From: Echinarachnius parma
Lineage: Eukaryota; Echinodermata; Echinoidea; Clypeasteroida; Echinarachniidae
Reading direction: 5' to 3'
NCBI GenBank assembly: GCA_037951105.1
Contig: JBAMJV010011308.1
Coordinates: 1-64,000, forward strand
DNA: 64,000 nt
Shown: positions 1-38,300 of the stretch, piece by piece
How positions within the stretch are numbered: position 1 is the first letter of the stretch
How the letters are laid out: each line of letters begins with the position of its first letter
Notes under the pieces: generated by a model
Databases searched by the model: none
Seen by the model: only the letters and a program-made list of their open reading frames with translations
What the model was told of the DNA's origin: nothing
Translations under genes and position numbers: made by a program

Positions 1-105
1 TCTCCACGAGTGTCTACGTCGAAATCGAGGGCTTCACGGCTCTTCAGCCACGACAACGAAGTCGCGTTCCGCCTACAAGTCTCTGCATCATGCTTACCTT
101 TAAAA

Positions 106-526
106 GAATCACTCAACAAATGCAAGTTCTTATTATTTCATTAATCAACTTGAGTTTGATATTTACTCGAACTGAAAAAAGAAATGTGGCATACCTGATT
201 AAGGAACAATTCGGCGAAGGAGATTCCAAACTTGGTTGGTATCACGGCTAGACCTCTCTTCTTCCACCTGTTCTCGCTAAATACAAAACAAAAACAAAAA
301 CAAAACTAAGTTCAGGGTTAATACACTTATTTTAATTTCAAATTCCATGACCTTTGCAGCAATAATTCCATGAAATTTCCATGACTTGTCACCATGGTAC
401 ACTAACAATGATATTTGCTTTCTCTCTGTACTCGTTGTACTGTTGTCCTCAGTGGTCGTAACCTTGTAGTGTTTATATATAACAAACGATAAGCATAATA
501 AGAACTTGCATTTGTTGAGTGATTCA
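106..526. repeat. 29-bp inverted repeat flanking exon 24
   Basis: The segment 106-134 recurs as a reverse complement at 498-526, about 360 bp apart, with exon 24 between the arms. The arms contain 'CTCAACAAATGCAAGTTC'. Similarity weakens outside them. Confidence 0.7.
195..276 (-). CDS. XDH: XDH exon 24, last exon placed with confidence
   Basis: The split Ser codon is followed by [20 protein letters not shown] then AELFLNQ. Matches '[27 protein letters not shown]': Phe1013 (bovine Phe1009) is kept while Thr1010 is Ala. Acceptor TTTTGTATTTAG, donor GTATGC, ends phase 0. The next exon should begin with the '(A)GALVHVYTDGSV' block, left of here or outside the window. Confidence 0.94.
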
Positions 527-9500: not shown

Positions 9501-12500
9501 CGGGTACCGTACCGCCAACCTAGCCATCCTATTGTATGAAGCCGCGCTGTATTCTTTTGTTCGGCGGTATAGTACGGTACTTAGCAGCTCAGTGCATGCT
9601 AAACGCATGGCACAATGCATAGTACATTTCGGTATGGGGCCCCCCGCGAATTTCTTTAGTGAAGCCATAATGCGTGTGGAGTTTAATTGTGTAACCAAAC
9701 CTTACGTTTCATCATTATGCTTTTTATCGGCTCTACGTACGAACATCAATTTTATATTCCTACTATGACCCCGCCTCCCCCTGTACACACACTTGTTATA
9801 CGCGGAGCGTATGCATCAGATTTGACCCCCACGGGGCCGGCCATCTACCCCTCCCCTTCCCCTTGTACGTACGTAAGTAGCTAGTTACATTCAGATCAAG
9901 ACGATCAATCGACCGTCCTAGTGTACCTTCTGGGGATTCCCGGATTAATCTATGTTTTCATACGGGGGATATGATTTTCGATGTATTTGCTAACAATATA
10001 CGAGTCGTTTCTTCTGTGGTTGTCGGTTTTCTTTAGTGTGATACTTTGAAAAAATAGCATTATAGTATTGTTTACTTCTACTTTTGAATATGAATTTTTA
10101 AATTATCTAACCCTTTTTTGGAAAAAAAAGTAAGTGATTCGCCACGGGCGAATAATGATATTGTCCGTCGAGAATGTACTGTAAAAACACCCCCACGCAT
10201 TACAAGCGGAATATTTTACCAAAAAACACGATTCATTTGCTCTAAATAATCGTTTTTACTAAAAAATTAATGATTAAATATGATTTCTTCTAGTCCTTCG
10301 AACATACTGCCGTGTGAAGTTGTGTAGCCTACGTGAAAATGATGCAACACAATGATGTTGTGGATTTACACTATTTAAAACAAGCAATCTGATTGGCTAA
10401 AAACCAGTTTCATTGCCGCAAAATAATTTCTTTTAGAATTATAATGAAAGTGAATCGACTGGAAAATTACGAAAGAAAAGGTGCAATGGGAGCGTTAGTA
10501 GACCTCTTTATTATCATAACTACCGAAAAGTGTATTCCTAGTTTGAATTTCAATAAAAGATAACATTGCTCCGTAGCCAGTAGCCGCTTGGATTGATTAT
10601 CTGAACATCATGAGTTCATTGTTAGAAGGGATAACACTGTGCCGACCCACCAGCTAGGTTGAAAGGAAACCGGGCAAACTAACCAGCGAAAAAGGTTGAT
10701 ATATCTACCAAACGGAGAATGATGATTATACCTTCAGTTGGGAGATGTCGAGCCTCGCGGCGATGTCCGTCATGAAAGTTTCGCAAATGATCATGGATTG
10801 GGGAACACCGAATCCACGGAAGGCCGTGTTGGAAGGAAGATTGGTCTTGCACAAGTGACCTCTCACTCTGACCACAGGAAAGCGATACACATTGTCAATG
10901 TGTGATACAGCCTTTTCCAACACCTGAAAGAAGCATAAAATTAAATAGCAAAAAGAAAGAAAAAACAATTGAAAAGCTGAAATAGTAAAGTAAATTAAAA
11001 CCGTAAATACTGAATAAAACCCATGACTAAAATGCACAGATCAGTTTGGGCTAGGATATTGGTCTTGCACAAGTGACCTCTTAATCATGCTACAGAGAAG
11101 TAATACACATTGAAAATGTGCGATACAGCCCTTCTCCTTCACCTGAAAGAAAGTAGAAAATAAAGTAGTAAGAGAGCTGAAATAGTGAAGTAAATTAAAA
11201 TAGTATATAAAGAATAAAAGCCACAAATGAAATCTCTAACAAAACGGTTTTGGATAGGATATTGGTCTTGAACAAGTTACTTCTTACTCTAGCCACAGGA
11301 AAGTGATACACATTGTCAATGTGCGATACAGCCTTTCCAATACCTGAATTTAGAGAAGAGTAAAAAGGTAACAGAGCTAAAATAGTTAATAAGATTAAAA
11401 CAGATGATTCTGAATATATAAACTATAAATGAAATCCATGAAGGCAGTTTTTAATAGGATACTCGTTTTACATACGAAAGGATCGATACACATTGTCAAT
11501 GCGCAATACTGCACACTTCATCACCTGAAAGAAGCGGAAAATAAGTGAGTTTATTTAAATAAATTGATACATGGAAAAAAGCATGATTCAGACTGATTGA
11601 ATATATTGTCAACACAATTATTGCGATACGTATACAGATCTAATAATAATAATGAAACATTTTTATATAGCGCATAACACATAAGCAAAATTGCATGTCT
11701 CTATGCGCTTTACAGAACAGAATACAAAAGGAATGAAATTGTGCACTGGGTTCATAATTAAATTTTACGACATGTACGAAGTGTTAAATAAATGTGTTTT
11801 CAAGCTCGTTCTAAACCTTTTATATGTATCTATGTTCCTAATGTGTTCAGGCAAGTTATTCCATAATACAGGGGCCGCATATGAAAATGATCTTTCCCCG
11901 TATGATCTTGTCGTTGTATAAGGGACACAAAATAAAGACTTTTTGCTCGAGCGTAGAGTTCTTTCTGGCTTATACTGTGTTAACAATTCAACAAGATATA
12001 ATGGACCAAATCGATGAAAACACTGATAAGCAAATAAAAGTACCTTAAAATGAATACGGGACTGAATGGGTAACCAATGCAAATTCCTTAAGACTGAAGA
12101 AATTGAGTCATGTTTCTTTGTTTGTGTTACGAGTCGCGCTGCTGAATTTTGAATGAGTTGTAAACGTTGAATCTGTTAATCTAACTTTGCTACACACATA
12201 GTTATGATATTACAAAACCTTTAACCCTAAAAAGGCCGGGGGGCCATAATGTGTCCCCCCCCCCCCCCCCCCCCACCCTCCGCGATTTTTTTTTATTGCT
12301 CCAAAACGCGGTAAGATGACGCGCCGCTGCTTGGTGACTTTTTTCTGTTGGGTCTTGCGCATATTCTAAAACTAAAATTTTGAAAATCGGACCTACCGTT
12401 ACGAAGTCACGTGACCTTTTGTCTATGCATGTCAGCCCGAAAATTGATAAATTTCGTGATTTGTGTACAAAACATATGGAAATATCAGTTTTCGTAAAAT

Positions 12501-15500
12501 GAGGTATATCATTGGTTATTTGGTCTTGTTTACATTTTATATGTTTGTTTTGGGGTTCAAAATAGTTGAATTATAGTTAGAAATTAAAAAAACAAAAACA
12601 ATAAAATACATAAGTAAAAAAAACAAAGAAATACATAAGAAATTATAAAAAGAATAGAAAACATAAGGAAGAACCTGGCTCTTCCAAATTTTGTTGTACA
12701 CCGTGTCCCAGAAAAAACGAAACCGGGTTTCATGGCAGAAATTTTCTGTCATAATGAATAATTTAATTGATGATATATATATGCCTGGAAAGCTCTGTGT
12801 CTCTTCTTTCATTTGATGTGCAACTTATGGCACATACTTCAAGCATGACTGAATTAGAACAATGGAAAGTGGTGTTACCAATATTCAATTTGCACGAATA
12901 AATTTGAAGTTTGGGTGAGTTTTAATAGTTGTAAACCTACTTATTTATAAAAGGGACAAACACCACATAAAAGTTCATATTTTTATCTTTTACATGACAC
13001 CTCATGCTAAAAAAATAAATGATTTATACCAGAGAACGAGTACAATGAAAACATGCCTGATTTCTGCCCGAATGAGTGAAAGTTGAGTAAGAAGTCGCTC
13101 AGCTTTCCTGACTAGCAGCTGACAATGGACTTTGATGCATGAGTGAATTTACACAAACATGGGGATCAGGAAACAGGCTAGATCAGGAAAGTTACTCATT
13201 TGGGCTGGAATCAAGCATGTTTTCATTGTATTCGTTCTCTGGCATATATAATTTATTTTTTAATCATGAGGTGTCATATAAAAGATAAAATTATGAATTT
13301 TCATGCGGTGTCTGTCCTTTTTCAAAATAAGTACGTTTACTACTCTTAAAACTCTCCCCAAAACCTCACCCAAACTTGCAATTTCTGCGCGCAAATTGAA
13401 TTTTGGTAACACCACTTTCTATCGTTCTAATTCAGTCATGCGTGAATTATGTGCCATAAGTTGTATATCAAATAAAAGAAGAGACACATAGCTTTTCAGA
13501 CATATATATATCATCAAGGAAATTATTCATTATAACATAACATTTCTGCCATGAAACCCGGTTTCGTTTTTTCTGGGACACGGTGTATTATTATTCCAAA
13601 TGCTCTAAAGAATATATGTAGTGAAAACCAGAGTTCAATTATGAAGAATATATGATTTATGGGTAAAAATATGAATTGTATGACCTTATTTGCATAAATT
13701 ACCATAAATATGCAAATTAATGAATTTTTCAAAAAAATTAAATTACCATTGTATTATATACACTTCACTTATCATGCATGCAATTTTTCACGGCGATCAG
13801 CGGCTCCGCGGCCGAGATCTTAGGGGGGGGGGGGGGCCATAATGGCCCCCCCCCCCCCCCCCCCGGCCTGCTGAAGACCTCAAATAGCCCGGCCTTTTTA
13901 GGGTTAAGTTATAATCCTACCAACTGGAAATAGTTATTCCTAGTGTGTCATTTAAACACTAATCAGGCATTTCATTTTATAAATCTTAACATTTAAGACA
14001 ATTTTTAAATAATGGGCTAAGTGACACTCATAACCCTAAGCATTTCATAACCGTAGAAGTCCCTCTTGTTTTAAAGCTAAATAACCTTAATAATATATCT
14101 GTTATTATGTAGGCCTACTTGCCTATAAAGAAGGAAATTAAACTAAATGTATGTTACTGTTATTACGTACAGCTCCAGACAGGTCATGACTATAGCCAGC
14201 ATTGCAATAAAGCTTGATGTCAAGTGCCGAAAGTCTGCCATCGTTGCTGTAGCCGACTCTGTAGCGTCCAAGGAACGGATTCCTGCCACCAGTAGAACAC
14301 ATATCCTCATCTCTGTCAAGCATGCACCTCACTGGTCTATTGATTCTGGAGAAACAAATGAACAACATTTAAACAAACTACAAGTACACCCCTCAAAAAA
14401 AGTTCGGAAACCAACTTTGATCGATATCATTCTTATTACCTCCGCCAACGGAGTTGGAAGGAGGTTATGTGATCGGTCCAGTTTGTTCGTCTGTTATGCG
14501 CATGCGCAGTCCAACTCTCCAACTCTAGCTATACACAACAACTGATATCTGACTGTGCATATAATGACAATGATAATAATGCTCGTTTCCTTTTAATTTA
14601 GTTGACTTTATACTATATTTACACTCATCCAGGTGATGTTTGTGCGGGTGACCGAACGAAGCGTATTTGATTAAGCCACTGTCCAAAAGTTCACCCCGTG
14701 TTTTTCAGTTAGACCACCAACCGTTTCACATCCTGATGTAGCCAGGGTGACATCGAGGAAAAATCTTTGATTACGGGGCTTTATTGTGATGTCATAATAC
14801 AATATCTCTTGCAGCGCGCGCCATGCGGTGAATAGTGGGCTCTGCCGTGTAATATAACTATAACAAAATATTATGGAAATCACGTGACTGTGTTGAGCCA
14901 ATCAATGGCTCGCATTTTGCCAAGTCATATAATAAAAGTCTTTATCGCTGTCTAACATGTGCCTCACTGATGGTCAACTCAGTCTGCAGCAAACAAACAA
15001 TAACAAAATACATATTTTGAACAACCTACAGGTGTATTATCAGACTATTTTTCATTCCCGAAAAATGTCTGTATATCCATCAGATTGGAAAAGTACCCCC
15101 TAAAATAAAGAATTCATTCCTGCATTGCCATATTTATAAGCGGAGACTACTGTTTTATGCCATTTTAAAACATATTAAAGGGATAGTTGAGTTTTGGTAT
15201 AGAGGGTGATACACAAGATACTTTTTTTGTGAGATAATGAAAACCTCAGTGTAAAATTAAAAGAGCAAACAATTATAATGAAAGCATAAAGTTTATTTGA
15301 TCAAAATCGGTTCGTAAATAGCTGAAATATCCATAAACATAACCATTTGTAATAATTGTGGGTGGGGCTCCACAATATTCGATAATTTTGAACCAGTCGT
15401 TAACAAAATTTAACAAATGCTTCCTCTTTTCAAAAATTTACAAATGAGGTTTTTAAATAATTGTTTATTATCTCTCTATCTAATCACTATTTCAACAAAA

Positions 15501-18500
15501 CATCACATGCACCATATTTTATTTTAAATGGTTGAAACCACCCAGCTAGCCACCTGACGTCGTGCCAACGTTGGGCAGATGTAAAATTCGTTTTAAGAGG
15601 ACGTTGGGCCGACATGCGACGTCCCCGCGACGTGAAAATGTCCGCCAGCCCAACATCAGCTCGGTGTCTTTTTTTAATGCTGGCCCAACGTCATTTTGCG
15701 ATTTCGGCCCAACATATTGTGATGATGTTGTATCTGGTAGCAATTTAAGAGGTCGGTACATGGATGTGAAATTGATGTCTGGCCAATGTTATTAATTGGA
15801 CCTCAATATGACATCTCTATATGATAACGCCAAAGCGATATCCTGCCGATGTCAGAACTGACAGCAATTAAACAAGTCGGCAAATGGTCATTAAACTGAT
15901 GTTGTGCCGATGTCATTAATCCGACATGAATAAGAGATCTCAAATATGACGTCGGGCTAATATCGCGCAGATGTTGGAACTGGTAGCAAATTAAGAGGTC
16001 AGTCAAAGATTGCAAAATTGATGTTGGGCTTATGTTATTAAATATACATAAATATGACCGCTCAAATATGACGTTGGGTCAATGTTGTACCGATGTCGGA
16101 ACTGGCGACCATTTGCCGGCTTGTTTCATTGCTGCCAGTTCTGACATCGGCAGGATATCGCTATGGCGTCATCATTGAGATGTCATATTCATGTCTAATC
16201 ATTGACTTCGACACAACATCAGCCTGACATATTTATCACATTCATGTCTAATTAATAACATCGTACCGATATCAATTTTACTACCATTTACCGACCTCCT
16301 TAATTGCTATCTTTTCCGACATCGGCGCGATATTAGCCTGACGTCATATTAGAGATGGCATATTCATGTCCGACTATTGACATCGGCGCAACATCACTTT
16401 TATGATCATTTGCCGACTTGTTTCATTGCTGTCAGTTCTGACATCGGCAGGATATCGCATTGACGTCATCATTGAGATGTCATATTCATGTCGGATCATT
16501 GACATCGGCTCAACATCAACTTAATTACTATTAGCCGACTTGATTCACTGCTGCCCATTCTGACGTCGAGGATTTCGGTTTGACGTCAAAATTGAGATGT
16601 CCTATTCTTGTCTCATTACTAACATTGTCCCGACATTAATTTCACAACCATGACTGACCACTGACTGAATAATTGATGTTGGGTCAAAATCGCAAAATGA
16701 CGTTTGGCCAGCATTAAAAAAAAAAAACGCCGCGCTGATGTTGGGCTGGCGGACATTTTTACGTCGCGGCGACGTCGAATTTTTAATGTAGGCCCAACGT
16801 CGTCTTAAAACGACTTTTTACATTGGCCCAATGTCAGGTGGCTAGCTGGGTAGCGACCTCTTAAATCGATACCAGTCCCAACATCGGCGCTATATTAGGT
16901 CGACCTCTTATTGGAGATGTCATATTTGACATTGGGCCATTGTCAAATGTTGATGTTGGTCCAGCATCAACAAATTACGTTGGGCCAATGTTGGGTTAGC
17001 GGACATTCAAACGTCGGGCGAACGTCAAGATTTGATGTTGGGCCAACGTCAAGATTTGATGTTGGGCCAACAATAAAAAATAACGTTGGGCTAATGTCGG
17101 GCCAACGTCAGAATTTGATGTTGGCCCAACGTCAGGATTTGATATTGGGCCATTGGCGGAAATTGACGTTGGGCCAACATCACAGAATGATGTTGTGACA
17201 ATGTTGGGCTAGTGGACATTTTAACCTCGCGCCCATATCATAATGTTATGTTGGTCCAATGTCATGAGTTGATGTTGGGCCATTGTCGGAAATTGACGTT
17301 ATGCCAATATCACAAAATGACGTGGTGACAATGTTGGGCTGGCGGACATTTGAACGTCGAGCCCACATCAAAATTTGATATCTGTCCTATGTCAGGATTT
17401 GGTGTTGGGCCATTGTCGGATATTGACATTTGCCCGACATCACAAAATGATGTTGGGACAATGTTGGGCTAGCGGACATTTTAACCTCGCGCCCACATCA
17501 TAATGTTTTGTTGGTCCAATGTCATGAGTTGATGTTGGGCCATTGTCAGAAATTGACGTATCACAAAATGATGTGGTGACGATGTTGGGCTGGCGGACAT
17601 TTTAACGTCGAGCCCACATCAGAATTTGATATCTGTCCTATGTCAGGATTTGGTGTTGGGCCATTGTCGGAAATTGACATTTGCCCGACATCACAAAATG
17701 ATGTTGGGACAATGTTGGGCTAGCGGACATTTTATCCTCGCGCCCACATCATAATGTTATGTTGGTCCAATGTCATGAGTTGATGTTGGGCCATTGTCAG
17801 AAATTGACGTATCACAAAATGACGTGGTGACGATGTTGGGCTGGCGGACATTTTAACGTCGAGCCCACATCAGAATTTGATATCTGTCCTATGTCAGGAT
17901 TTGGTGTTGGGCCATTGTCGGAAATTGACATTTGCCCGACATCACAAAATGATGTTGGGACAATGTTGGGCTAGCAAACATTTTAACCTCGCGCCCACAT
18001 CATAATGTTATGTTGGTCCAATGTCATGAGTTGATGTTGGGCCATTGTCAGAAATTGACGTATCACAAAATGATGTGGTGACGATGTTGGGCTGGCGGAC
18101 ATTGGCGGACAATAAGTTTTCAGAAAGCGCCATTTTGGGTTTTAACGGTACTTTGTGAATGATAACAGGCTTTTTATTTAGTCATTTGTATGTGTGTATT
18201 CATTTCGAGCATGGCGGAGTTATAACTGTGAGTTTGTAATGTAATGGTGCAGGTTTTGGTTACTAAATTAAGTTTGACCAAAACTGTACTCTCTTTACCA
18301 AAACTCAATTATCCCTTCAAGTCTGCCGTCGTTTGTGATGCCAACTCTGTGGCACTCAAGAAACGGATTCCTGTCAAATAAGGGAATCTCGTACAAGGTT
18401 GAAGGAACTACAGCGTCTAGATGGCCTAATTTTCACAATTCGGCTCTCTATATGTAATTTTTCCCGAAGAAAAAGAATTTGGCAGTCATTTCTCATGAAA

Positions 18501-21500
18501 TCAATCAATTTTGGGGTAATTAGTAAATATCGAATTGTCCTGGGAACGCCCCTTTTAAATCGCCAAAATGTGACGTCATCTAAAGAACGGACTAATGAAC
18601 TAAATTCTGTAGATGACGCGTCATGACGTAAGCCAATGAATTGTCATGTCGATCACGCTGCCGATTCCGGACCCTAAATGTGGGTGGGGCGTAATCTGGC
18701 TGCTAAGTGAGATTTGGCATCAGAAAACTAGTCTTAAATCACTACTGTGTTTATTTTCATGGATTTTTTTTCGGCAGACATATGTTTCAAGTCATCAACT
18801 ATGGAATAAGTGTCAAAGTACGTTGTATTATTTAGGTCCTTTAACTTACTTGTTTGAAGCCACAGCACACGCAGAGGCCATCATGGAGGCTCTGCTCTGT
18901 TTTCCCCCGAAGCCTCCGCCCAAACGCTTGGTTCTACAAACGACACGATTCAACGGCACGCCGAGAACAATGGAGGTCATTTGCTGCAAACAAAATGCAT
19001 GTAAAAATATGCAATGTTAACAACTGAAAAAGAAGGTGCATAATTAAAAACTTGTCAGTTTGAAGGCAGGTCTTCTCTCCCTGCCCCAGAAGCTTCCTCT
19101 CACTTGCTTGGTTCGATAAACGACACAATTTAACAGCACAATGTGAACACCGAGTCGATTTTCTACAGGATTTAAGAATATCACCCCATTCATACTAGCG
19201 TCTTGCACTGGCCTGGGATAAGATGTCTACCCATTTATACTACTAGCGCAAGTAGGCTATGGAACACCGGCCTGGCCTATATAGCGTAGGATACTTCTGC
19301 GCATGCGAAATACGACCTTGGCAGAATAAATTCAAACAAGATGGATCTTGGATTGCGCGCCGTCAAAATAGATGTCTACGCCATTGCCCAATTAATATGA
19401 GCAGAGTCAACTTTGACATTTGATCTAGCTATCCTTTAAATGAAATCAGTTCATTGGCTCCGTAAGATCTATACATGTAACAAATTATATGGCAATCTGT
19501 CAACCAAATCTAGAGATATCACGATGTTTGCATACAATGAGCCCTGTGACCTTTGACCTCGTGATCACCCCCTAATCGGATCACTCCATTCTCTCATTAA
19601 GATACATTAATGTACTAAGTTCCATGAAAGTCAACTGGTTCTTGAGGTATCGTGATACCAAGCTATGTTTACATGTATAATGAGCCCTATATGGCCTTTG
19701 ACATATGACCTCGTGACCCCAACATCTAATCACGTAATTGAATTGGCTCCTCAAAATATATGCATGTACAAAGTTTAATATCTGAATTTAAACATCATAT
19801 TATATAAACAAAATAAGTATGTAGAAGGTGCCTATGCACTGACTGTTCGTTATACATTATATAACGTTATATATTTGTAAGCATTAGGCTGATGTGCTGT
19901 CCCAGGTCGAAAAAAACAGTTGAAACCAGTTGAAACCAGTTGGAAATTCAACTGGTTTGAACTGGCATCAAGAAAAGATCAGTAAAGATAAATGGATAGA
20001 TGCAGCAGACCAGTTAAAACCAATATAAATACCAGTTGAAACCAATTAAAAATACCAGTTGAAACCAACTACTTTAACTGGTCTTCTTACTGGTCAGCCT
20101 TACTGGATTCTTACTGGATTCTTACTGGTTGTTCCAGTTGATTCCAATTGATTCCAGTTGATTCCAGTGTACCAATTTCCATATTGAAACCAGTTGGCCA
20201 ACTGGTACCAGTTGGCAACTAATTTTCAACTGATTTTTTCGACCTGCGGTACTATAGCCTATGTTGTGGTAGCTCATTCACAAGAACAAAGAGACTGGCC
20301 GTGCACTACAGAGTGCTGGTAGGAAGTTCTAACAACAAAATATTATGTATAAAGTATTTCACAGATATATACTGTTTCATTTTAAATTTCCAGTGCATTC
20401 GTAAAATGCATAAATCTAATTGAAACACAAGTAATGACAAACATAAACTAAAAGAGTTTACGTAATAAGTAGGATAAAAAGAGTATATTTGTTGAGTGGG
20501 TAGCGGCCAGAAAAATTGTATCCTCATAAAAGGCTGACCCTGGAATTATATTTTTTAAATACGACAATTTCAAAACAATTTTATATCTAGCTACAACAAC
20601 AACAAAATAATATTTTACACAAAACAAAAAAAAACATAGGGGGAAATTAACGTGTCATCTAAAATATAAAATAATTATATAAATGTGTTTTTTTAAATCT
20701 TGGCCTGATGGGCCCCTTTGAAAAAACAGCTTGTAGCTGACAAGGGCAATCCATCCAACGAGTGGAGAATATATATATAGATAAAGATACATACATGTAC
20801 CAGATTTTAAATAAAGTCATAATTTACATACCTGGACTTCAGAAGGGCTCTGGGTGGAAGAGAATAACTCCATCTCTCCATCCTCTCCCTTGGGGATGGC
20901 AAAGGAACACTGGGTCTCCAGGTAGAAGTGCTCCTGCCCTCCCACCTTCATCTCCCCCTCCAAGACATGGTCTGACCTCTCTAATGCCTCCTCAACGTCT
21001 CCCGTTTCAAGCCCTTTGGTCACTTTCAAGAATGACTGCTTGGCGATAGAATCCTGAATCAAGAAACAGAGTCAATGTAACCAATGATAATCAGAATATT
21101 AAAAGAGATTTAAATGAAATTTAGATTGAAGTTTAATAGAGATTATACGAAGTAATAGCCTTATCTGAGGAATCATGTATGGGTTGTACACATGTAACCG
21201 TTAGAGCGTCACAACTCATAGCAAACAAAAGGTTGCATTCATGCAAATGAGCACCCTCGCCGATAATAAGCCCGCTCGCATACCTATAGTCACCAGTGTT
21301 CAAAGCATTTTCAAGACACTTTTAAGACACTTTCAAGACAGACTGCTTGTCTATAGTATCCTTAATCAAGAAACAAAGCCAAACTAGATGATCTTCGACT
21401 GCACAGTCCAAATGGATGCCTCTGCCATTGCATGATTTATATGAGCCCTGTGACCTCATGACCCCAAAATCTAATTATGTTCATCTATACATGTACCAAT

Positions 21501-24500: not shown

Positions 24501-27500
24501 GCCATGTAGAGTTCACCCTGAATGCTTGGCATATCGTCCAGGTAGATGGCTTCCCCCGTGGCCTGCTTCAAGGCCGACACGTGGACCACAGGTCGGCCTA
24601 CGGGGTCCTGCTGAGGCTGGCCTGGACCTACCTCCTATTCAAAATAGAAGAAGACAAAACAAAGTGAATGTTAGAACTAATGATGAATGATTTGGAAAAG
24701 GTTTCAGTCATGTGTTCCAAGTCTAAGGGGTGCATAATAGGTCTGGATAAATGATCTTGGGCTAGGGATTCCTCCTAGTTAAATGGGTAGTACAGTTTTG
24801 GTAAGGCTGAACTTTAGTTACCAGTTTAGTTTAGTTTTCGTGCAGCCGCTGCAGCGCCCTCTTTAACAAAACTGAACTACCCCTTTAAATTAAAACTAAA
24901 TGCCAAATAAAGTATTAAGTAGACTTTAAAAATCCCAATGGATACATGTATTTCAAGAATTAATAATGTGAATGTCTGATGGACTTCACACGATACACAA
25001 GTTAGGTGCTGGTCTGTGGATACCTCGATAGTTCAAAATTGGATTTAAGAAATAATAACGAATATGCCAAGAACATACATAGTCGGCAGTATTTCACAAA
25101 TCATTTGAGCTAATTACAATGGGTTGTTCTGCTTCAAGGGTACTTCTGCGCATCTTTAGATCTTGCAGTCGAGGTTTAAAACTCACTTTTGATTTTTAAC
25201 AATGATGTTTCTATACCGGTATAATTACGTTTACCACGTCATTATGTATCTTACTTTTTATTTGATGCATACCTCACCTGAGTATTTTATAGCGTTTTGC
25301 TCTTCATAAATATGCATACTTAATATACAAATTATTATATTGACAAAATAAAGTGGATCAAAAATAACAATGGATAATTCAAATGAACAATGTAGGAAGT
25401 TTATAAGAGAAGACTTCAATTATAAATTGGTTGGTTTATTCAAAGGCTAACAGATGCACTACGGGTTTGTCTATTAAAGGGATCAAGTAACTTTGTTTAG
25501 AGTGCAAACAAGTGATGTGTGGTTAATTGGTGTGATCTGATATGTCTAGAAAGAATTGTGTGAACATTTAAAGTTAATTGGATGTTATTTGGCCGAGAAA
25601 TGAGCAAAAATGCAACGTGATATTAATTTACTCAATGCACTTACTTTGTGCACAGCTGAAAAAGTCCCGTAGATAATCTCATATCCGAACATTTCAATCG
25701 TAAATATATTTTGAACGAAATGGAAAATTGAAAAACCGAAACCCGTCCCATGCTTTTATTGTTAATACAAACAAAACAAGGTATGAAGGAACCGCTAGAA
25801 TTCCAATTGGATTTTGAGGATTTGGACAAAGTCCCTATAAAGTAAACCTTTAAAGTGATCCTTGGTTATAATCAATAATAATTACTATAATTCTAATTGG
25901 ATTTTGAGGATTTGGACAATGTCCCTTTCAAGTCCCATTAAAGTGTTCCTGGGTTATAATCAATAATAATTACCCTACCTGGTAAAACTGAGTGGCATTG
26001 ATTGGTGCATTCTCATGGACGGTTATTGCTGACTTATGGCTGGGTGGAATGGAAAGACCATTGCTGTATTTCTGTCGAAAGAAAATTCACAAGAAAACAA
26101 TTAGTCCCAAACTCTAAAATCTGATCTTCTCCTATACATGCATGCATGTACTAATAATTATAACATTTTTACACAAGTCAAAAAAGTAACCACTCATACA
26201 CCGTTAGCATACCTGAGCACAGCTGAAATTGAAGGCACACAACAGTAAAAAAAAAACTGCACAAATTTACACTTGAAATAAACAGAGTATTAGCAGCAAA
26301 CTTTACCTTTACAAACATGAATATGAACAAATTTGTTTGAAGCTTAACCAAATGGTTTAAATTTGTCCTCTTTTCTGTAGAAAAGTCCCAAAGTTGACAA
26401 TATTGGAATTAATATGTGGTTAGGTGTTTGCGTTGTATACTAAAACTGCATACATATCACGCAAACAATAGTCGCCGATTTTGCTTGTTTCTCGCGGGTG
26501 GGCGCGGATGCCGCAAATCACAGCGAGAGTTCACCTTGTAGGAATTATGATACGGCGATCGCTGATAGTATTCGAATTTGGATCTGCCATGCGAACGACC
26601 GAGAAATTGCGCGTGTTTTTTTAGCAATGGAAGTTAGTGTTGCGATGATTGCGGCCGTGTTTCAAATAGTTTAACGGCAGAAGACAAAGGAGCAAGAAAA
26701 AAGGGAACTCAAAGTCCACATTTTGTGGGTATATCCCAAGTCGACATTCCCATAGAAACCCATAGGACAATCCTATGGGTTTCCTTTGGGTTTCCTATGG
26801 GTTTTCTATGGGTCTCTATGCGTTTCTATGGGACCCATAGACATTTACCAGGTCGAAATTTCCATAGAATCAAAACCCATACGAAACCCATAGGAATCCC
26901 TTAGAAACCCAAAGAAACCCATGTTCTACTTTCTCTATTGAAACCCATATATTAGAGACCCATATAAACCAATAGGCCTATGGGTTTCCTATGGGTGTTG
27001 GTTCTATGGGAATTTCGACCTGGGATATTACAATACATTTTGAGAAACTAATTTTGTTGAAAAATTAATCAAATAAGTCATCACCCATTCATTGAATTAA
27101 TGTCTTTATATGGTATGTTCTTCTCTCTCTGTTCGTAGTTCAATCCTACCAGGAGCATTTACATGTAGATGTGGCTATACAGCACATTAAAGCAAAAAGG
27201 CAGTCACAAAAAACAACAAATCAAACAAGGTAACTCTTGATCTTGAACTTTTACAACTTTATTACCTGTGAAGATGAAAGGTGATTGGCAACTGCAAGAT
27301 AAAACTTGAAGAAGAAGCTTAGTGTGAGTGACTTGCGATAGGACTCCATTCCCCCAGGAGCACCGGCCGGCAGGGGTAAGTCCTCATCAAGGGTGCAGAG
27401 GGCCGTCTCTAACATGCTTTCATCCCATTTTCTGTGATACAAAAAACGAGAAAGAACCATAATAAAAACTCGAGAGGTACGTGACACACACAAATTATGG

Positions 27501-30500
27501 AGAAAAAAGAGTGAACAACTTATGGAAGGCCACCATCACCCCAGGGGGTAAGTCTATATACCAAGGGGGCAGAGGACCGTCTTTAACATGCTCTCATCCC
27601 ATTTTCTGTTAGAAAAAAAACATAGAGAGAAAACATAAAACAAAGCAAAACAAAGGCAAAACGTATCCGAATGAAACAAAGAGGTATAACACACACAAAT
27701 TATATAGAGATAGAGTTTACGACTATTGGTAGGCTAGAGGTAATTGGGTGACTACAATAGAGAGGATGCAACTGATATCAATTGTATACTTACTTTCCAA
27801 TCAACTTGTCCATGGTTTTGAGAGCCAGTACAGTCGTTGGCGCCATGCCACCATAGGCAAGTGATACCTCCTGGATAATACTGTCCTTCTCTTCCAGTAT
27901 CACCCGCATGCCGGCGTTGACAATAGCGATATCATCCTCCCTGCGAGGAGACTGCTTGTAGGCGTGGAAGAACTCATTCTTTAAAGAGAGAGAGAGTGAA
28001 AACATGCCTTTTAAGAGGGGAAAAACCGTGCTTTTAATAAGTAAATATAATTCCAGTAAATTGATAAAGTAAAAATACTAAAGAAAACACTCATTGTGCA
28101 AACAATGTTAAGTGCATGGGCAAAACATGAGGTTTGAGTTAATTAAACTCAAATAAAATGAAGACAACAGATAAAATGATTGTAGGCGAAAAGTTAATTA
28201 CTTATATGACGCAGCTTGGTCGGACTGATAAGGGATGGGGGCGCACATGAATGAAGGATTGGGGAACCCTATTATATATTTCTTATTTTTAGAAGAATTT
28301 TTGTGTCTTTGTCATGCCTTTGTAAACATACACATAATTGTAGGATAGCATTAAACCGATCCATTCAAATAAACAAAACAGAACAAACAAATATACGGCA
28401 ATATCGTATATTAGGCCCCACCACTGCTATACTGTATACACTTATGTAGCCAATAAATCTAACTTATAGCCACTAAATCTGGCCTATAGCCACTAATCTG
28501 ACCTATAGCCACCAAATTCGAGTTAGGGTTTCGGGTTAGGGTTAGGTTATGTATACAGTATATCAGTGGTGGGGCCTAATACACGATACACTGTAATACA
28601 ATGACAACAAAATAAAAGGAGGAACAATGCCAACGTACCTGCTGTGTGAATGGGAGTGTAATTGACTGGAGAATTTCATCCGGCTGGATAATGTTCCGCC
28701 TGTACCCCGTGAAGAACTTGTTATCCATCACCACACACCTCTCACCTGGTACATATACAAACACATTTATAAACAATGAAATGATTAATATTAAAGGGTA
28801 CCACCACCCAAAAATAATATTCTTATTAAAGAAAGGTAACATCTTTAGTATTCCTTTCCATCAACAAGTTCACAAAAATATGTTTCCAGAAAGAACAAAA
28901 TATAATTGGAAACGCATCACCATTCTAAAGCATGCGTTTATGCGGTCTGAATTACGCAGACTGCTATGCGTGCGGTGAATTGCAATGTGTGCACAGCGAA
29001 CGAATCGTCCGGGAATCTATTGTTTACAAACGTGCGCGTTGAATAGCATTGGCGCACTCGCAATTGGTTGGCCCGTATGGAACCAGGAAATAGCAGTGGT
29101 TCCGTAAGTGGTGGAAATTAATTGCTTTGTTTATGAATTACACAACCCTTTGCAAAATGTTGGGTATCTATTTGATATCACAAAACGGTACCAAAACATA
29201 TAATAATGTGTTGTTCTTTGCCTGGTGGTCCCCTTTAAGTGGTCCGTTGACTTTGGGACGATTCTAAGCAAAGCGTCACAGTATCACCATCCCGACCATT
29301 AATATAGGGATACAAACAAATAATAATAATAATAATTCACATTCCCCCCCCCCCCCCCCCCCCGATTTCCCCCCATACTTTTTAAACGTTTTCAAACGTT
29401 TAGTGAAATAAACGGAATAACGTAACACTAGTTTAAACGAGACAGAGTGCACTCACGGAGTGCATACCTCCGCCAACGATCGGATCAAGCCATATAAAGC
29501 CCAAAGAGATCGCAAATGAACAGACAGCCTACAAGAAAATTATTTTTTAAACAATCACATTTTTGGGGAAAAAATGGGACACCAAAGCGACATATTTCCG
29601 TAATAAATAGTCCAAGCTTATCTTGTATAGGTATGCTTTTATTTCATACTGTCTTTTTATAACATTTCTCACGGCGATTATGAACATTTCCGGCAAATTA
29701 AATCCACGGAACAAGCCTCCAGCTGGCAATTACTATGCCAGAGTTTCGGCCGGCGAAGGGGCTTGCTGTGGTGTGCATAGCTGCACTGGCATGCATGGTG
29801 ATTGATGTACCGTAGATCGAGTGTTGGACTGCGCCTGCGCATAACAGACGAACACACGAACACATTAACAGACAAACGGGACCGGAAACATAACCTCCTC
29901 CAACTTCGTTGGGCGGAGGTAATAACTACTTCAAGCACGTCAGAACATAAGAATGATTAAAATGCCAAAAGAGGTCTGATTTGTTGGTAAAACTGTAACA
30001 TATTTTCCATCTTTGCTTGTCAAATTCAACCCAAATCACTTGGAGCTTTCAGATTTGCTTTCTACATTTTGATTGTTGATGGTAACAGAAAAATGAAATG
30101 GGTTTAGATTTTTCAATTGTCTCTCATAATTATGGAGATATTTATGATAGCACAAAAAGCATTCTAGGGACGCTTTTCGACTTTACGAATGTCAATCAGA
30201 ATCAATCGGCAGTAGGTGATAACATCCGGCAACTATCTCACCTTTCCTCTAGGTAAATAGTGTCCTTATTCTAAGAAACTATCACAGATTATTCAGAAGA
30301 ATCGTACAATGATATTGCTTTATACGATTGTATTCTCACATTAATGGATCATTTTAAATCAAATTAGTTTTATGGGCAGGGCCCAACACTTACACTAGCT
30401 GGCCTGCTGATCCGAGCCAATAAAATGTAAAATTCAGGCCAGGAAAAATTAATTTGCAATTCATACATTACTTTGGTAGCTTATCAGGCAAGTATATTTT

Positions 30501-33500
30501 CATACAAAACGAGCATCAGTAATAACAGGGTCAATAAAGTGAAATCTGAATGAGGAGAATGAAATGCTGTAAATTGGGGGCCAGTTGTGTCGGGCCACCC
30601 AAAATGGAGAGAATATCATTTTTACTAGAATGACTAGCTAGGTCACTACCAAAATAAGTTAGTGCGGAGCCCTGCTTAGGTATAATATGAGAGCCCCCCC
30701 CCCCCCCCCCCTCCAAAGACATTTGTTATTGTAATATACAGTAAATGACAACCTTTTTGCCATAGGTATGTACGAGAGCCCCAGAATTATCAAGAGGCCC
30801 TGAAAATGATAGAAAGAACCCCTATTATATCTTATTGAGTACAATGAAAAACAATAAATAAATGTACAGATGAATAGATAAATCAATCAATCAATCAATG
30901 AACAAATACACAAATAAATGAATGAATGAATGAATGACTGACTGACTGACTGACTGACTGACTGACTGACTGACTGACTGACTGACTGACTGACTGAATG
31001 AATGAATGAATGAATGAATGAATGAATGAATGAATGAATGAATGAATGAATGAACGAACGAATGAATTAATTAATTAATAAAAACATGTTAAACAAATAA
31101 TACTAAATAAATAAATAAATATATAACTAAATAAACAAATATATACATATACATTTACAAAAATAAATACATTTATCGATAGACTGGTTGAGAATATACT
31201 CTGAAGTGCAATTTTAAACACAATTTTAAAAGGATGTATTATATTTACAAACATATGTATCAATTAAGAAAGAAAATGGACCAGAACTTTACCTCCTGAT
31301 TTGGAGACCAGCTTGAGTTTGGCTCTTGCTGCCATGAATATAGGGTTCAGATCAGAGATGGGACTCCCAGTCACAATGTTGCCTCCCACTCCCTGTACAA
31401 TGACACAGACAAATAAACAATATTATTAGTAAGTCACTTAAAGGGATACTTCAGTTTTGGTTAAGATGATTTACTACCATTCAAGCATCATTAAATTATA
31501 ACTGTTAATATTTTATGATAACTGTAATACGATTTTTATTTACTACAATTCTGTCTGAACAAATATATATCATTTTAAGAAGTAACAGACACTAATCCAT
31601 AAAATCTTAATAGCATAAACGTAAAAGTAACAAACATTATAATTAAGAAATTAGAAAGTAACAGCAGAAATAACAACAAATAATTTGGAACAAAATAGTA
31701 TGGTACATCTTGATTTACTAAGATAAGTTTAAACAAAATAGTACGGTACACCTTGATTTACTAAGAAACTATATTTTTTTATCAGACAGCAATGTGAAGC
31801 TTCCTTTTTTTATCTGCATCAAAGTTGTTGAAGAGTTGTGTTTGAGATCATTTGTTTGGAAAGTTATTACTCACCGCAACATTCCTGATCTGTACTCCTG
31901 CAAACCATCTCAACATCTCGACAATAGCAGCAAAAATTCTGGTTTTATGTTCTGTAATAACGCACACACAAATATAAATTAACAATTCATTATTTTACAG
32001 CAGCAAAAAGTGTTGTTTTACATTTTGTTATAACACAACAGCAAATAAATTATCACTATTTGAAAAGCCCAAAAAATTTTACTTGCAATTTGTTGGACCT
32101 CGATTTGAAAAATAAATTGATATGAGATTGATATGACCAATGAAGAATAAAGAATTTTAAGTGATTTTGTTGAGGACCTGGTTGTGTTTCAATGATAAAA
32201 CTCCTTGAAATAATGGTCCATTCTTCTTTAAGTGGTAACGAGAATCCAATATGATAAGAGTGTTTTCTTCTTAAGAATGTAGTCAAAAGAATCCCCATTA
32301 GGAACGCCTTCCCCCCCAAAAAAAAAAAAAATAATAATAATAATAATAATAAAAATAAAAATAAATTAATAAATTAATAAATTAATTAATAAGTAAGTAA
32401 TAATAATAATAAATCAATCAATCAATAAAAAAAAAATTAAAACAAAAACAATCATAAATAAATATTTTTAAAAATGCCTGAACATTGTTTGCATTACATG
32501 AAAAGCTTGTAATATTATTGAAGGTGGAAATTGACATTTATCTGTAGAGGTTGCCTACTTCTGCCTGCAATGACGTCATTTAGTCATGACCCCACAAGTG
32601 CACATTTTAAGATGCGGGGTTTAGCACGTTACGGAAGGCTTTAAAATAGGTGGAAATATTCGTAATTTTCTTTTATTACTGATATGTTGAGTACAAACCT
32701 AAAAGGATTTTGTAATGTAATAATAAAGTATTGTATTTAATCTGCAAGGCCACTTTAAGCTGACAGAAGCCCCCGATAAAATGTTGATTAATAATTAATC
32801 TAAACTATTTTTGACTTTCTAAAGTTTGCACTGATTTAGGACTTACTTTGACAAGTAAATAACAGTAACAAAATATGAGTCCCACTTAGTGCCTGGTCAT
32901 ATTTTATTGCTGACTGAAGCCCATACAAGTTGGACTTTCTTTGACAAGTAAACAAAAAGAAGAACAAAAATAAGTCCTGCTAAGTACCTGGCTGTCTTTT
33001 GATGAGGTCCTTGAAATACTCATCTATGCAAGTCAAACTAACAGAGGCCCCAACGGTAACCCCTTGGTCATCATCGGTAAGTTTGGTTAGTTCATGGATC
33101 TGGTTCACAGAGACCAGGACCGGATACAACTGGTTCTTAAACTTCATCTCCACACCTTTCATATAGAAAATATATCGGAAAGTAGTACAAGAGAATAATA
33201 AATAATGCATTAAACACCTGAAAACCCCAAGATAGAAGCCTAAAGTAAGACACTGACTATCTAAGACCATTTCTAGAATCTGGTTTACAGAGATCGGACC
33301 CAACTATAACTGGTTCTTGAACTTCATTTGCACACCTGTATAATCAGATAATAGAAAAGAGAGATCACATGTAAAACATATAAGATACGAGCCTCAAGTA
33401 TGACACCGGCCATCTAGGGTATGTAAGGGTATGTAAGTTCAGGGATCTGGCAAGCAGAGATGAGAACCGACACAATAGAGTACTGAATGGATGACATCAT

Positions 33501-35302
33501 GCCCTTTTGTTACACAATACTAATCAGTCTAAACATCTTGTCCTTTAGTTTGTTCTTTTGACAGTGGGTTGGATGTAGTTGATTGCTTATTAGCAACTGC
33601 CAGGCCATACATTTGGAGCTTGCCTGACATTGCTTAGAACCATTGTCCATGGCAATGAATAGCTGTGATGTCACTATTTAGTACAGGATTACTGTTGTCT
33701 GTGTTTGTTCCCCTTTATTTCGTCTCTTTTGTAAAAGAAAATCAAGATAAAAGACAATTGTCTTATTAATGACAATAACAAAATAAACCTATGATATTGC
33801 TTTTGCAACAACAATAGCAACAACAATCAAAATAATAATAACAAAAATAATAACTACATCAAATTTGTCACTTTTGTGTTTTACGTTGATGCAAAATGAA
33901 AAAGAAATTCAGGCATGACCTTCTCTGTGTGTTTGAAAATGATCGAAAGCAAAGTTAGCCGTGTATAGGTCATCCCCGCAAAGTTACCACAAGTGTGACC
34001 AAAAAAAAATCAGCAACAATCCAGTATTTACCAACTTCAGAGTTCCCGATGATAAGTTTTGCATCAGGATACTTAGTCTTGAGAGCCAAGAGTTCGTCCA
34101 AAGTGACAGGTTGATACCACGAAACTCTCTCTCCTCTGAAGAACAGCGACTTGGGAGGGTCATTTGCTGATAACTGGTTAGAAAAGAGAAACATGAACAA
34201 TAAGTTTGTATCATGTATCAACAAAAAATCAGTGGCAGTTTATAGCATAAATTATGCGGTTCCCTGAAATCCAAATGCAAGTTGCCTTTAACAATTGAGT
34301 ATTAATGTATTCATCGCCTATTTGACCTACGTATGTTTGATATATTTTTAAACATTTTAGCAATTATTTTCTTCGGTTTGCCAAGTCCCATCTTTAAAAA
34401 AATAAACTCTCCAGAGTAAAAAAACCCTTGTGATATCATTTCTCAATCACTAGTCAACTAACCGGAGATGAACAAAAGACAAACTTACAAAAGAACATAC
34501 TCACAATAACAATGCACGTTTCCATACAATGAACACATTTATTGGCCGATATTTAGTTCGATGAAGGGATGATTTGTTGGCCATTCGTTTTCTTTTCGTA
34601 GAATCCAAATTACAGGGTTGTTCCATCTGAAATTTGATGTGGGTGTTACATTCATCCTTATCCGTCTATTGGAAACCGTTCGGACGATTTGTAAAAGGCG
34701 GACATTCCCTTTAAAGGGATCTTTTAACCGTTCCTTCGATATTCTGAACTATCCATTGACTTTATACATGAATTACAAGAAAACGTATTATACATGTAGT
34801 TCATAGCTCCTTTAGACGCCATCCAAAATACAGTTTTATAGTTAAACCCGTCATTGCATCCACCTCTATAACAGCCAACCTGTCTATAAAAAGTGATCCT
34901 CTGCAGAGAAAACACATGAAACCTGACTACGGAGGTCACTTGTCTACAGTGGCCACGTTTTTGGTTTCTCTTAGGTCACTATAAACATAATATAAATATG
35001 TGAACAATTACAGTAATGATATTTAGGATAATCGATGTACATATATATAGTTCTACACTTATCCCTAATTCCATTCCTAACAACTCATTATACAGAACCA
35101 ACTAACACATAATTATATTATTGAAATGTTATCAGAGTATAAACATGATAAAGATGACAATGTTTTGGAACTGGTCTTACTAGAAGCTCGGGAGGAAAGA
35201 TAATGTCCTGAGATGGGTCATACGGGGCGAACTGTTGAGGGTCAAACAGTGGACTGGGTTCCTGTGGACAATAAAGTAAAGACGGGGAAAGAAATAAAAA
35301 AT

Positions 35303-35366
<64 letters not shown>

Positions 35367-38300
35367 TCGGATAGATAGATAGATAGATAGATAGATAAAT
35401 GAATATATTTATTTTATTTCGTCTTCAAACATTAAAATGTTACAATTATAACAATTTACAAACATAAGCATTTACTTATAGGCATGATTACTTACATGCC
35501 TGAAATGCTATTTCAGGAAGACAATAAGTCCCTCAATAGCATTTCAAGTCACTCTGAGAGGAACATTCAGTAATGTCCCCTCCCTTGCCAATTAACATCA
35601 ATTAATCAATCAATCCATCGATCGACAGATGTTCTTTTATATTCGGGGACACCTGATTTAGTTAAGTGCGCCATAATGCATTGCTCCCAAGGGAGCAGAG
35701 AGTGCACGTCATGCGCGGAATGATTGTGAGTGTATCCGATGACCAGGGTAATAATACCATTGTAAAGCGCTTAAATAGATGATTATCAATCATATTAGGC
35801 GCTATATAAATCGAAACATTATTATAATTAGTATCATTATTTTCAGGTATCGGGCAATAAGAATTGTTAAAAATATTGTGTTTACATGCACTTGCCGGAC
35901 ATGGCCACAAGGCAAAACAAATAAAATCTCTAATATTGTGTATACTTACCTCCGTGTTGAGATCTTGGGCAGAGCATGGGCCATTCTGACATCTGCCTTT
36001 ACCTCCACAACATCCTTCCTGTATGATATACAATATACATCAAATTATTAAAGTGAGTCATTCAATTTGTACAATTTCAACCAAAATCACTTTCCTACTT
36101 CTCTTGTACATTGTTGTTTGGCTTATGATAACAGAAGAATGAAATGGGTTGTGAACTTGTGATATTAAAAATGTCTCCATAATCATGAGTACGGTATATT
36201 TAAGATTGAATTTGAGAGCTTATATAGAAGCTTCCGACCGTAGTCAAGAGTATGTAAATTTGGATACATATATATAGTCCATAATATCCGAATTAAGATA
36301 CTTCATGCGAACGATCGGGATCAATATACAGACAATGATTTTCTTTGTTTTCACTACGTAAATGTTATTCTTTTCCATTGAAATTCTCACATATCCTTCT
36401 CAACAATCTAACATTGAATTTGGTATATGATTGAAGTCCCAGACATTACTCTTTTGAGAAATTATGAAGTTAAAGGATCACTTTAATACAGTCAAACCTA
36501 CAACGTATCTATATGGATCAACCGATCGCGAGGGATATAGAAAAAAGGAAGACAATTTAAATTTTGTTGTTACACATGTCACTCATTATATATATCATTA
36601 TCAGCATTTGTAGGACAACTTTACCCATTTACTAGAGTAAACAAACACATTAAGTTATTTTAAAAAGAAATCCACTTTACTACCTCATAATTATAGGGTT
36701 TGTAGACAAATCAATATGACATTTTTTTTTGGGCACTATATCACTTGGTATTAATCATATTATAACTTGTATAATTGTTAATAAATAAGTATACATGACA
36801 TTGTATATGACTACATGTTTGTAATATAATTATGTAAATGTATCACATACTGCAAAAAGTTATAAAATAAAAGTTTATTCAAATTGAAAATACATTGAGT
36901 AACCTAAATTACAAAACAAAACAAAATGATGAAATGTACTAATGTTTTTGCAATATTTACCTTGGTGAATGTTTTATACGCTTGCAGGATGGGTCTATAT
37001 CCTGTGCATCGACAGAGATTGCCCCCCATAGCGGTATGAATGTCGTCCATCGTGGGTTGGGGGTTGTTGCGCAGGAGAGCGTACATGGACATGACAATGC
37101 CTGGCGTACAGAAACCACACTGTGAACCATGTGCCTTGGCTATACGCTCCTACAAAGGGAAAACAAAGAGATAACGAAGAAAAGGGAAACAATAAATGAT
37201 AGTGAAATGAGCTGAAATGTAATCAAACAAGCAATAACATTTTAAAAGCAGTAAAATGTTTTTACTATTGGGTAGGAACATGACCATGGCAATGCCTGGA
37301 CAGTGTACATATTCCATACTGGGAACTATATGCATTAGCAATACACTCCTACCGCTGTTTGAGAGACGTGTAAGCAGGGGGAGGGGGTAGGGTTTTGAAG
37401 GGATAGTTGAGTTTTGGTAAAGAGAGTACATTTGGGTAAAACTGAATTTTAATAACCAAAATCTGCACAATTACATTGTTCGAAAGGAATGCAAAATTAG
37501 AAATGACTTAGTAAAAAGCCTGTTATCATTCAAAAAGAGCCGTTAAAACTCAAAAGGGTGCTCTCTAAGAACTCATTGGTTTCAACCATTCAAAATAAAG
37601 TATTATGCATGTGATATTTTGTTGAAATAATGATTAGATAGAGAAATAACCAACCACTATTTTTGTACATTTTTGAAAAGAGGAAGCATTTTTTAAATTC
37701 ACGACTGGTTCAAAGTTATCGAATAATTGTTGGGCCCCACAATTATTACAAGTGGTTATGTTAATGGATATTTCAGCCATTTCTGAACCGATTTGGATCA
37801 AATAAAGTTTATCCTGTCATTGAAATTGTATGCCCTTTCAAATTTGACACTCAGTTTGTCATTATCACACACACAACATTTGTATGTAGCGCCCTCTATA
37901 CCAAAACTCAACTATAGCTTTAATGAACGATGTACATGTACTTGATTATATAAATATTAAATGAATTTGAAGTAGCCCAAATTGTACTCTTCAATTTACG
38001 TTGAGTATTATTGAGTTGATTGAGATATAGATTAAGTCTTCATTTGAGAAAAACGTATGGGACAAGACAAAATTCTATTTCTCATACCAGTAGGAAATTT
38101 GTTTGAATATATACTCCGCAAAAAAAGAAACGGGACACTTGTTTAAGTTGAAATATTTCATATTTATGTACGATAAAGTGTACATTATCATATATCAAAG
38201 TAACGAAAATTGAGTCCTCTACATGTAGGGATTAAATATAAGGTGTAATCGTTCGTGCATGAACTGCCATGGTCAATTAACAATGGCAAGGTCTGTTTTC

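Follow-up and report, generated by a model that had tools for sequence, protein, structure and literature searches.

The closest described systems to the one reported here are the "mirages" of amphioxus globin genes, border duplications that affect both exon borders in units of 150-160 bp (PMC3087553). For instance, BflGb6 has 3 to 6 units of 150-160 bp consisting of the 3′ end of an intron and the 5′ part of the exon, BflGb9 has a copy of an exon 3′ border, and copy number varies between haplotypes. The mechanism was called unclear in that 2010 article, and possibly general in cephalochordates; the same source cites amphioxus Adh3, with a spacing of 10-72 bp (Canestro et al. 2002), and a further case is the lancelet PGBD5 gene, with 60 and 108 bp (PMC3902484). 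The available sections of the amphioxus huntingtin paper mention tandem repeats and no border copies (PMC2206037). Here, we describe truncated copies of exon edges in a minus-strand gene, identified from the parts compared as xanthine dehydrogenase (XDH), in the first 64 kb (the window, 64,000 nt, the whole stretch analyzed) of contig C11286 (198,811 bp) of a 1.2-Gb genome. We read these copies as remnants of mirage-type tandem duplications across exon borders, with a probability of roughly 0.87.

RESULTS

Copies of exon edges in the XDH gene

The XDH gene of the window (gene A) was modeled with 22 exons, numbered 3 to 24 as in the initial annotation; the model excludes the 5′ end, and the 3′ exons lie beyond the contig start. 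Each modeled exon is preceded by AG, and when joined they form one open frame, which runs across the functional exons only. Three other gene copies were compared: paralog B, head to head with gene A on C11286 at about 79.7-132.5 kb, with introns alignable to those of the window in pieces at about 82-96%; Ap, a near-identical copy of gene A on C4000 (an allele or recent duplicate); and paralog C, a third XDH paralog, on C1345. The exons concerned and their copies are as follows, with the part copied in parentheses, counted from exon nt 1 or, if negative, above the acceptor.

195..41959, minus strand: XDH gene A, exons 3-24 (sequence match and gene model)
36961..37149, minus strand: exon 5 (gene model)
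37278..37352, minus strand: exon 5 copy (-4..67), 75% identical, 199 bp upstream
32988..33155, minus strand: exon 9 (gene model)
33271..33353, minus strand: exon 9 acceptor-side copy (-17..65), 77%, 180 bp upstream
33433..33475, minus strand: second partial copy of exon 9 (nt 27-70)
32839..32905, minus strand: exon 9 donor-side copy (last 13 nt, donor, and about 56 nt of intron)
31875..31951, minus strand: exon 10, upstream match marginal only (nt 5-26 at -69)
27266..27431, minus strand: exon 14 (gene model)
27545..27644, minus strand: exon 14 copy (-37..59), 81%, 174 bp upstream; its counterpart appears to be the functional acceptor of paralog C
20832..21053, minus strand: exon 19 (gene model)
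21309..21382, minus strand: exon 19 copy (-22..49)
21786..21919, minus strand: exon 19 copy (-32..119)
21949..22114, minus strand: exon 19 copy (-32..132), 64%
22149..22202, minus strand: exon 19 copy (-13..41)
18850..18983, minus strand: exon 20 (gene model)
19071..19167, minus strand: exon 20 copy (-5..93), 70%, about 180 bp upstream
14171..14345, minus strand: exon 21 (gene model)
14928..15033, minus strand: weak exon 21 copy (-40..53), 66%, z 6.0 in the window gene
18319..18376, minus strand: inner fragment of exon 21 (nt 58-115), 79%, 4 kb upstream, common to paralogs B and C
10732..10923, minus strand: exon 22 (gene model)
11031..11144, minus strand: exon 22 copy (-2..113), 219 bp upstream; homology extends past -100 (tandem unit)
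11247..11345, minus strand: exon 22 copy (-2..98), 85%
11471..11526, minus strand: exon 22 copy (-2..51)

On the acceptor side there is thus one copy each of exons 5, 14, and 20, one of exon 9 plus the second partial copy, four of exon 19, three of exon 22, and one weak copy plus the inner fragment for exon 21. The weak exon 21 copy was not seen in B or C in the shuffle comparison described below. In paralog B, an exon 21 fragment (nt 58-155) lies at C11286:116358-116465, about 32 bp past exon 20 and far from exon 21.

Searches with the exons alone gave 11 matches at E≤0.01 after removal of self matches and of a near-palindromic alignment of exon 16 with itself. All 11 were on the same strand and in the directly upstream intron, as the initial annotation had it, and 7 began at exon nt 1. 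Adding 400-nt flanks to the queries (E≤0.001, no farther than 8 kb, 10 nt or more of exon) gave 14 rows, 13 of them upstream and one, the exon 9 copy at 32839-32905, downstream. Exon 9 donor-side copies are also present in Ap, B, and C. The claim that the copies are always on the acceptor side is thus close to true, though not entirely so, within this gene, and it fails for the genome (see below).

The copies were also compared with chance, using 60 shuffles of each 1500-nt flank and scoring as positive any flank more than 2 above every shuffle. In the window gene, 7 of 21 upstream flanks (exons 5, 9, 14, 19, 20, 21, and 22) and 0 of 21 downstream flanks were positive. Corresponding upstream frequencies were 7/21 for Ap, 7/22 for B, and 4/15 for C; downstream, only exon 9 of B was positive, and two scores in Ap exceeded the shuffles by less than the threshold. 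Since seven upstream flanks beat all 60 shuffles, the copies are better than random, and of the eight or more exons initially said to have one to four upstream copies, these seven stand. Exon 10 is doubtful: its upstream score against the shuffle maximum was marginal at 16 versus 17 in the window gene, 18 versus 15 in B, and 14 versus 15 in C.

Some features of the copies were consistent. First, the local alignments of the 13 upstream copies begin 2 to 40 nt above the acceptor in all but one case and end inside the exon, at nt 41-132, in every case. Second, all 13 are direct repeats in the intron beside their own exon, which supports tandem duplication. Third, a tandem array can be seen at exon 22, its units measuring about 200 bp and containing intron sequence, and in exon 19 of B and C the homology runs from -55 to +119 with a spacing of 187. 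Finally, identity between copy and exon (14 copies) was 0.81 at codon positions 1 and 2 and 239/344 at position 3, as expected if the real exon keeps the protein and the copy drifts. Decayed whole-exon tandem duplicates, or mutually exclusive exons, would likewise be adjacent and in the same orientation, but no whole-exon match was found in the four XDH gene copies searched, and the copies stop inside the exon, often at the same place across paralogs; this origin is hardly credible.

A young array in a dynein gene

A good example of the duplicated unit was found in a dynein heavy chain exon on contig C3447, for which a profile search gave 13 truncated upstream copies. The 1,061 bases examined there contain four upstream units, spaced at exactly 184 bp and 97-99% identical, each made up of 90 nt of intron end with its AG followed by exon nt 1-94; the functional exon (195 nt) is the last unit plus the remainder and the donor. 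In these bases, a simple donor weight matrix placed only two sites above threshold, the real donor and another at the far edge. Duplication across the exon border is plain in this array. The initial proposal of recurrent local tandem duplication at exon borders followed by decay of the copies is borne out.

A lariat-derived cDNA ending at the branch point was considered for copies that seemingly start at -2 to -40. It was rejected because intron sequence makes up 90 nt of each dynein unit and about as much of those of exon 22.

Acceptor-side and donor-side copies

The two sides were compared using profile matches of five domain families unrelated to XDH, 522 in all (AAA_6, 110, at E≤0.001; DHC_N2, 115, AAA_8, 102, AAA_9, 105, and myosin head, 90, at E≤1); the four dynein heavy chain domains among them stem largely from the same genes. 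A shorter match was paired with a longer one no more than 6 kb away, on the same contig and strand, if at least 60% of it overlapped the longer one, if it had at most 90% of the longer one's length, and if it overran it by at most 6 positions. Each exon and side was counted once, by its nearest copy, and haplotig-like contigs were counted once. The overrun and haplotig conditions were added after a first list, which without them had given 21:8 for three families. Under these conditions, 25 of 42 exon-level pairs were kept in the first four families (15 overran and were taken as neighboring exons or composites, and 2 were haplotig copies), and in AAA_9 3 of 22 rows overran and the rest amounted to 8 exon-sides.

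The strict pairs comprised 21 acceptor-side and 12 donor-side copies (P = 0.16), including two donor-side AAA_6 pairs (C1315 and C4544) in which it is doubtful which match is the real exon. Equal numbers on the two sides genome-wide, named initially as the outcome that would refute acceptor-side duplication, are thus partly approached outside XDH in this sample of exons. Among XDH-family exons, 11 acceptor-side and 3 donor-side cases were counted at the sequence level, leaving out exons 10 and 21: on the acceptor side exons 5, 9, 14, 19, 20, and 22, two later B exons, one exon of C9021, and two of C377, and on the donor side exon 9 and two exons of C2988. The XDH family and the five families together give 32:15 (P = 0.019), a sum of counts made by different criteria and including related XDH paralogs.

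Arrays were found on both sides. On C377, one XDH-family exon has two acceptor-side copies and the next exon has an acceptor-side array; on C2988, donor-side copies accompany two XDH-family exons, in one case as an array. In other families, donor-side copies number four in dynein C9197, three in dynein C877, and two in myosin C3991. An acceptor-only process as the rule is ruled out by these donor-side arrays. The rival that the initial title implies, in which some mutational process peculiar to acceptors, such as stalling of forks at the pyrimidine tract, copies 3′ splice sites only, could draw on the 11:3 and 32:15 ratios and on the 7 upstream versus 0 downstream exons of the shuffle test in the window gene. 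We nevertheless consider it unlikely, given that 12 of 33 copies in the five families are on the donor side at the same spacing, that contigs C2988, C9197, C877, and C3991 carry such copies, and that the 11:3 ratio comes from related paralogs under criteria other than those behind 21:12. A mild acceptor excess is possible; acceptor exclusivity is not. By simple arithmetic, if units measure ∼190 bp and exons ∼150 nt, a duplication that touches an exon at random would in most cases straddle one border only, whether or not selection removes harmful copies as initially proposed.

Spacing of the copies

In 22 of the 33 pairs from the five families, the nearest copy was 165-217 bp away, both sides being alike. 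Within one array, multiples of a single spacing were seen (179, 358, 537, and 716). Other repeats of C11286 at tandem-like distances (100-260 bp) were spread from about 105 to 251 bp. The spacing is near the nucleosome repeat, and a link with chromatin is only a suggestion. A splicing filter that sets the spacing was considered and is unsupported, since donor-side copies have the same spacing. The donor-side dynein arrays still seem to be unstable: profile matches numbered 4 on C9197 versus 1 on C4123, and 3 on C877 versus 2 on C14328, contigs taken as haplotypes from their like match patterns alone.

Several points weigh against tandem duplication as the origin of all the copies. The 165-217 bp range was picked after the data had been seen, and short units would escape a profile search. 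For exons 5 and 20, anchored extension found no alignable homology upstream of the acceptor, and these copies could be short insertions instead of tandem units; age is the simpler reason for the missing homology. Some copies are also 0.7-4 kb away and nonadjacent. Such distances would suit break repair by capture of nearby DNA (synthesis-dependent strand annealing), which would have put exon pieces into the intron; proximal capture with a mean length of 162 bp is documented in human (PMC2671141). Against capture, the young dynein array is head to tail with an exact period and common unit ends, spacing clusters, and that article treats tandem copies as another mechanism. In addition, there was no inverted copy in the window gene at E≤0.01, and one was found in B. 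Capture is therefore a very unlikely source of these copies.

Age of the copies and exchange at exon 14

The copies had been thought to differ in age. Instead, for 12 of 13 copies tested, B or C holds a sequence at the corresponding position that resembles the copy more closely than its own exon does, ten clearly and two (exon 9 and one of exon 22) only slightly, which indicates that most copies are older than the gene duplications. On this evidence, 12 of 13 appear to predate the XDH gene duplications, two of them by a slight margin.

Acceptor flanks (-90..-1) group by origin. At exon 14, scores are 70-79 among the functional flanks of A, Ap, and B and 45-83 among their decoys, the name used here for copies that carry an acceptor. 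The functional flank of C groups with the decoys, scoring 68 to B's decoy and 17 to B's functional flank. Block by block from about -70 to nt 40-45, C matches B's decoy at 20/20, 10/10, 19/20, 17/18, 19/19, and 18/20 positions, compared to 10/18, 6/10, 11/20, 12/18, 18/19, and 15/20 for B's functional copy; past a switch near exon nt 40-45, the order reverses. C also encodes ETS at a site that is ETA in A and B, and its serine codon recurs in B's decoy. In paralog C, an A/B-type decoy thus seems to have become the working acceptor together with ∼45 nt of exon 14, which would mean that exons can be built in part from recycled decoys. For this exon, a duplication postdating the A/B/C split was rejected because, in A and B, decoy and functional flanks have diverged from each other far more than C has from B's decoy. 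Array contraction or conversion may explain the exchange. A second acceptor switch is likely at exon 19, where the functional flank of A scores 17-19 against B or C and B scores 82 against C.

AG, never GAG, is retained in all 14 decoys whose match includes exon nt 1 (one per orthologous group, one anchored by hand; decoys falling short of nt 1 were not counted); for decay at the rate of codon positions 1 and 2, P = 0.0026. Their pyrimidine content is 0.70, compared to 0.69 for real acceptors and 0.49 for random intronic AG. This is what selection for function, such as alternative or regulated use of the acceptors, would produce. On the other hand, two further decoys of a later paralog B exon have lost AG, and the 14 were chosen without the copies that stop short of nt 1; AG retention is weak evidence, and a selected function is quite unlikely.

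Other features of the window

11768..12175, minus strand: 136-amino-acid open frame within the exon 21-exon 22 intron, which by eye reads like the C-terminal end of a non-LTR (long terminal repeat) retrotransposon reverse transcriptase
15700..18100: satellite-like array of 122- to 251-bp units within the exon 20-exon 21 intron
42770..44291: dispersed repeat in two direct copies about 940 bp apart, with more copies elsewhere on C11286

Rfam and tRNA scans of the window gave no match.

DISCUSSION

Under tandem duplication across exon borders, a segment of about one nucleosome repeat (mostly 165-217 bp) straddling a border would be duplicated head to tail. Where the acceptor border is covered, the upstream unit would be left as a truncated decoy with intron end, AG, and the 5′ part of the exon but no 3′ part, and the last unit would keep the rest of the exon and the donor and so could stay functional, the anatomy seen in the young dynein array. 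Where the donor border is covered, decoys would lie downstream. Arrays would grow and shrink while decoys decay, and by contraction or conversion a decoy acceptor with the first part of the exon could replace the original, as the exchange at exon 14 of C suggests. Splicing past intact decoy acceptors would presumably rest on exon definition, because the decoys have no donor. The ∼190-bp units may come from nucleosome-spaced breakage or template switching, which is a guess.

A broader version is tentative and, in our estimate, somewhat short of an even chance: that one-nucleosome tandem duplication at exon borders goes on steadily across the genome in this lineage and that array contraction repeatedly swaps decoy splice sites and drifted codons into working exons. 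If so, exon edges and acceptors would turn over by recombination and not by point mutation alone, with exon 14 of paralog C a caught case and exon 19 likely the second. The C3447 stretch, with five near-identical acceptor regions and a donor after the last alone, is a natural test of exon definition.

Comparison with known systems

The host seems to lie outside cephalochordates by its mitochondrial code, a matter of host range and not of structure. COX1 on C14600 has 12 in-frame TGA codons, read as Trp. In the 501 bases examined, 4 of 5 comparable ATA codons fall where the best-matching solved COX1 chains, which we take to be mammalian, have Ile. A code with ATA as Ile fits echinoderms, hemichordates, cnidarians, or sponges and not lancelets. 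Lancelets have many GFP-family genes; a GFP-family search, run without a positive control, gave no match here. Amphioxus was set aside as host on these two grounds, and an ambulacrarian is considered most likely.

Other described processes share parts of the pattern. Intron gain by tandem duplication, in the portions available of PMC4974935 and PMC2891723, also involves local duplication over splice signals, whereas the pieces here lie inside existing introns and no gained intron was seen. The repair-mediated duplications of PMC2671141 are likewise short proximal copies, sometimes with splice sites, but they are nontandem, tandem copies having been filtered out, and the copies here have a tandem period.

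The amphioxus mirages are closer. As in those, the unit spans the exon-intron border, arrays are head to tail (the 184-bp dynein array, exon 22, and the spacing multiples, since old single copies cannot show it), and both 5′ and 3′ borders are hit (21:12, and C2988). Unlike in those, many exons of one gene are affected, the spacing is mostly 165-217 bp on both sides, old decayed copies are common to paralogs, and a decoy acceptor appears to have been taken over as the functional one. Among the titles and abstract openings covered, in which subscription journals are thinly represented, no mirage report was recognized outside cephalochordates. With the present case, a curiosity known from a handful of amphioxus genes reaches a further animal group and numerous exons within a single gene; the near-constant unit length hints at chromatin, and the exon 14 case suggests that drifted codons from noncoding decoys can find their way back into a protein. 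The kind of duplication is therefore known, and the features that seem to be new are the animal group of the host, the tight spacing, how many exons of a single gene are affected, and the exchange of an acceptor.

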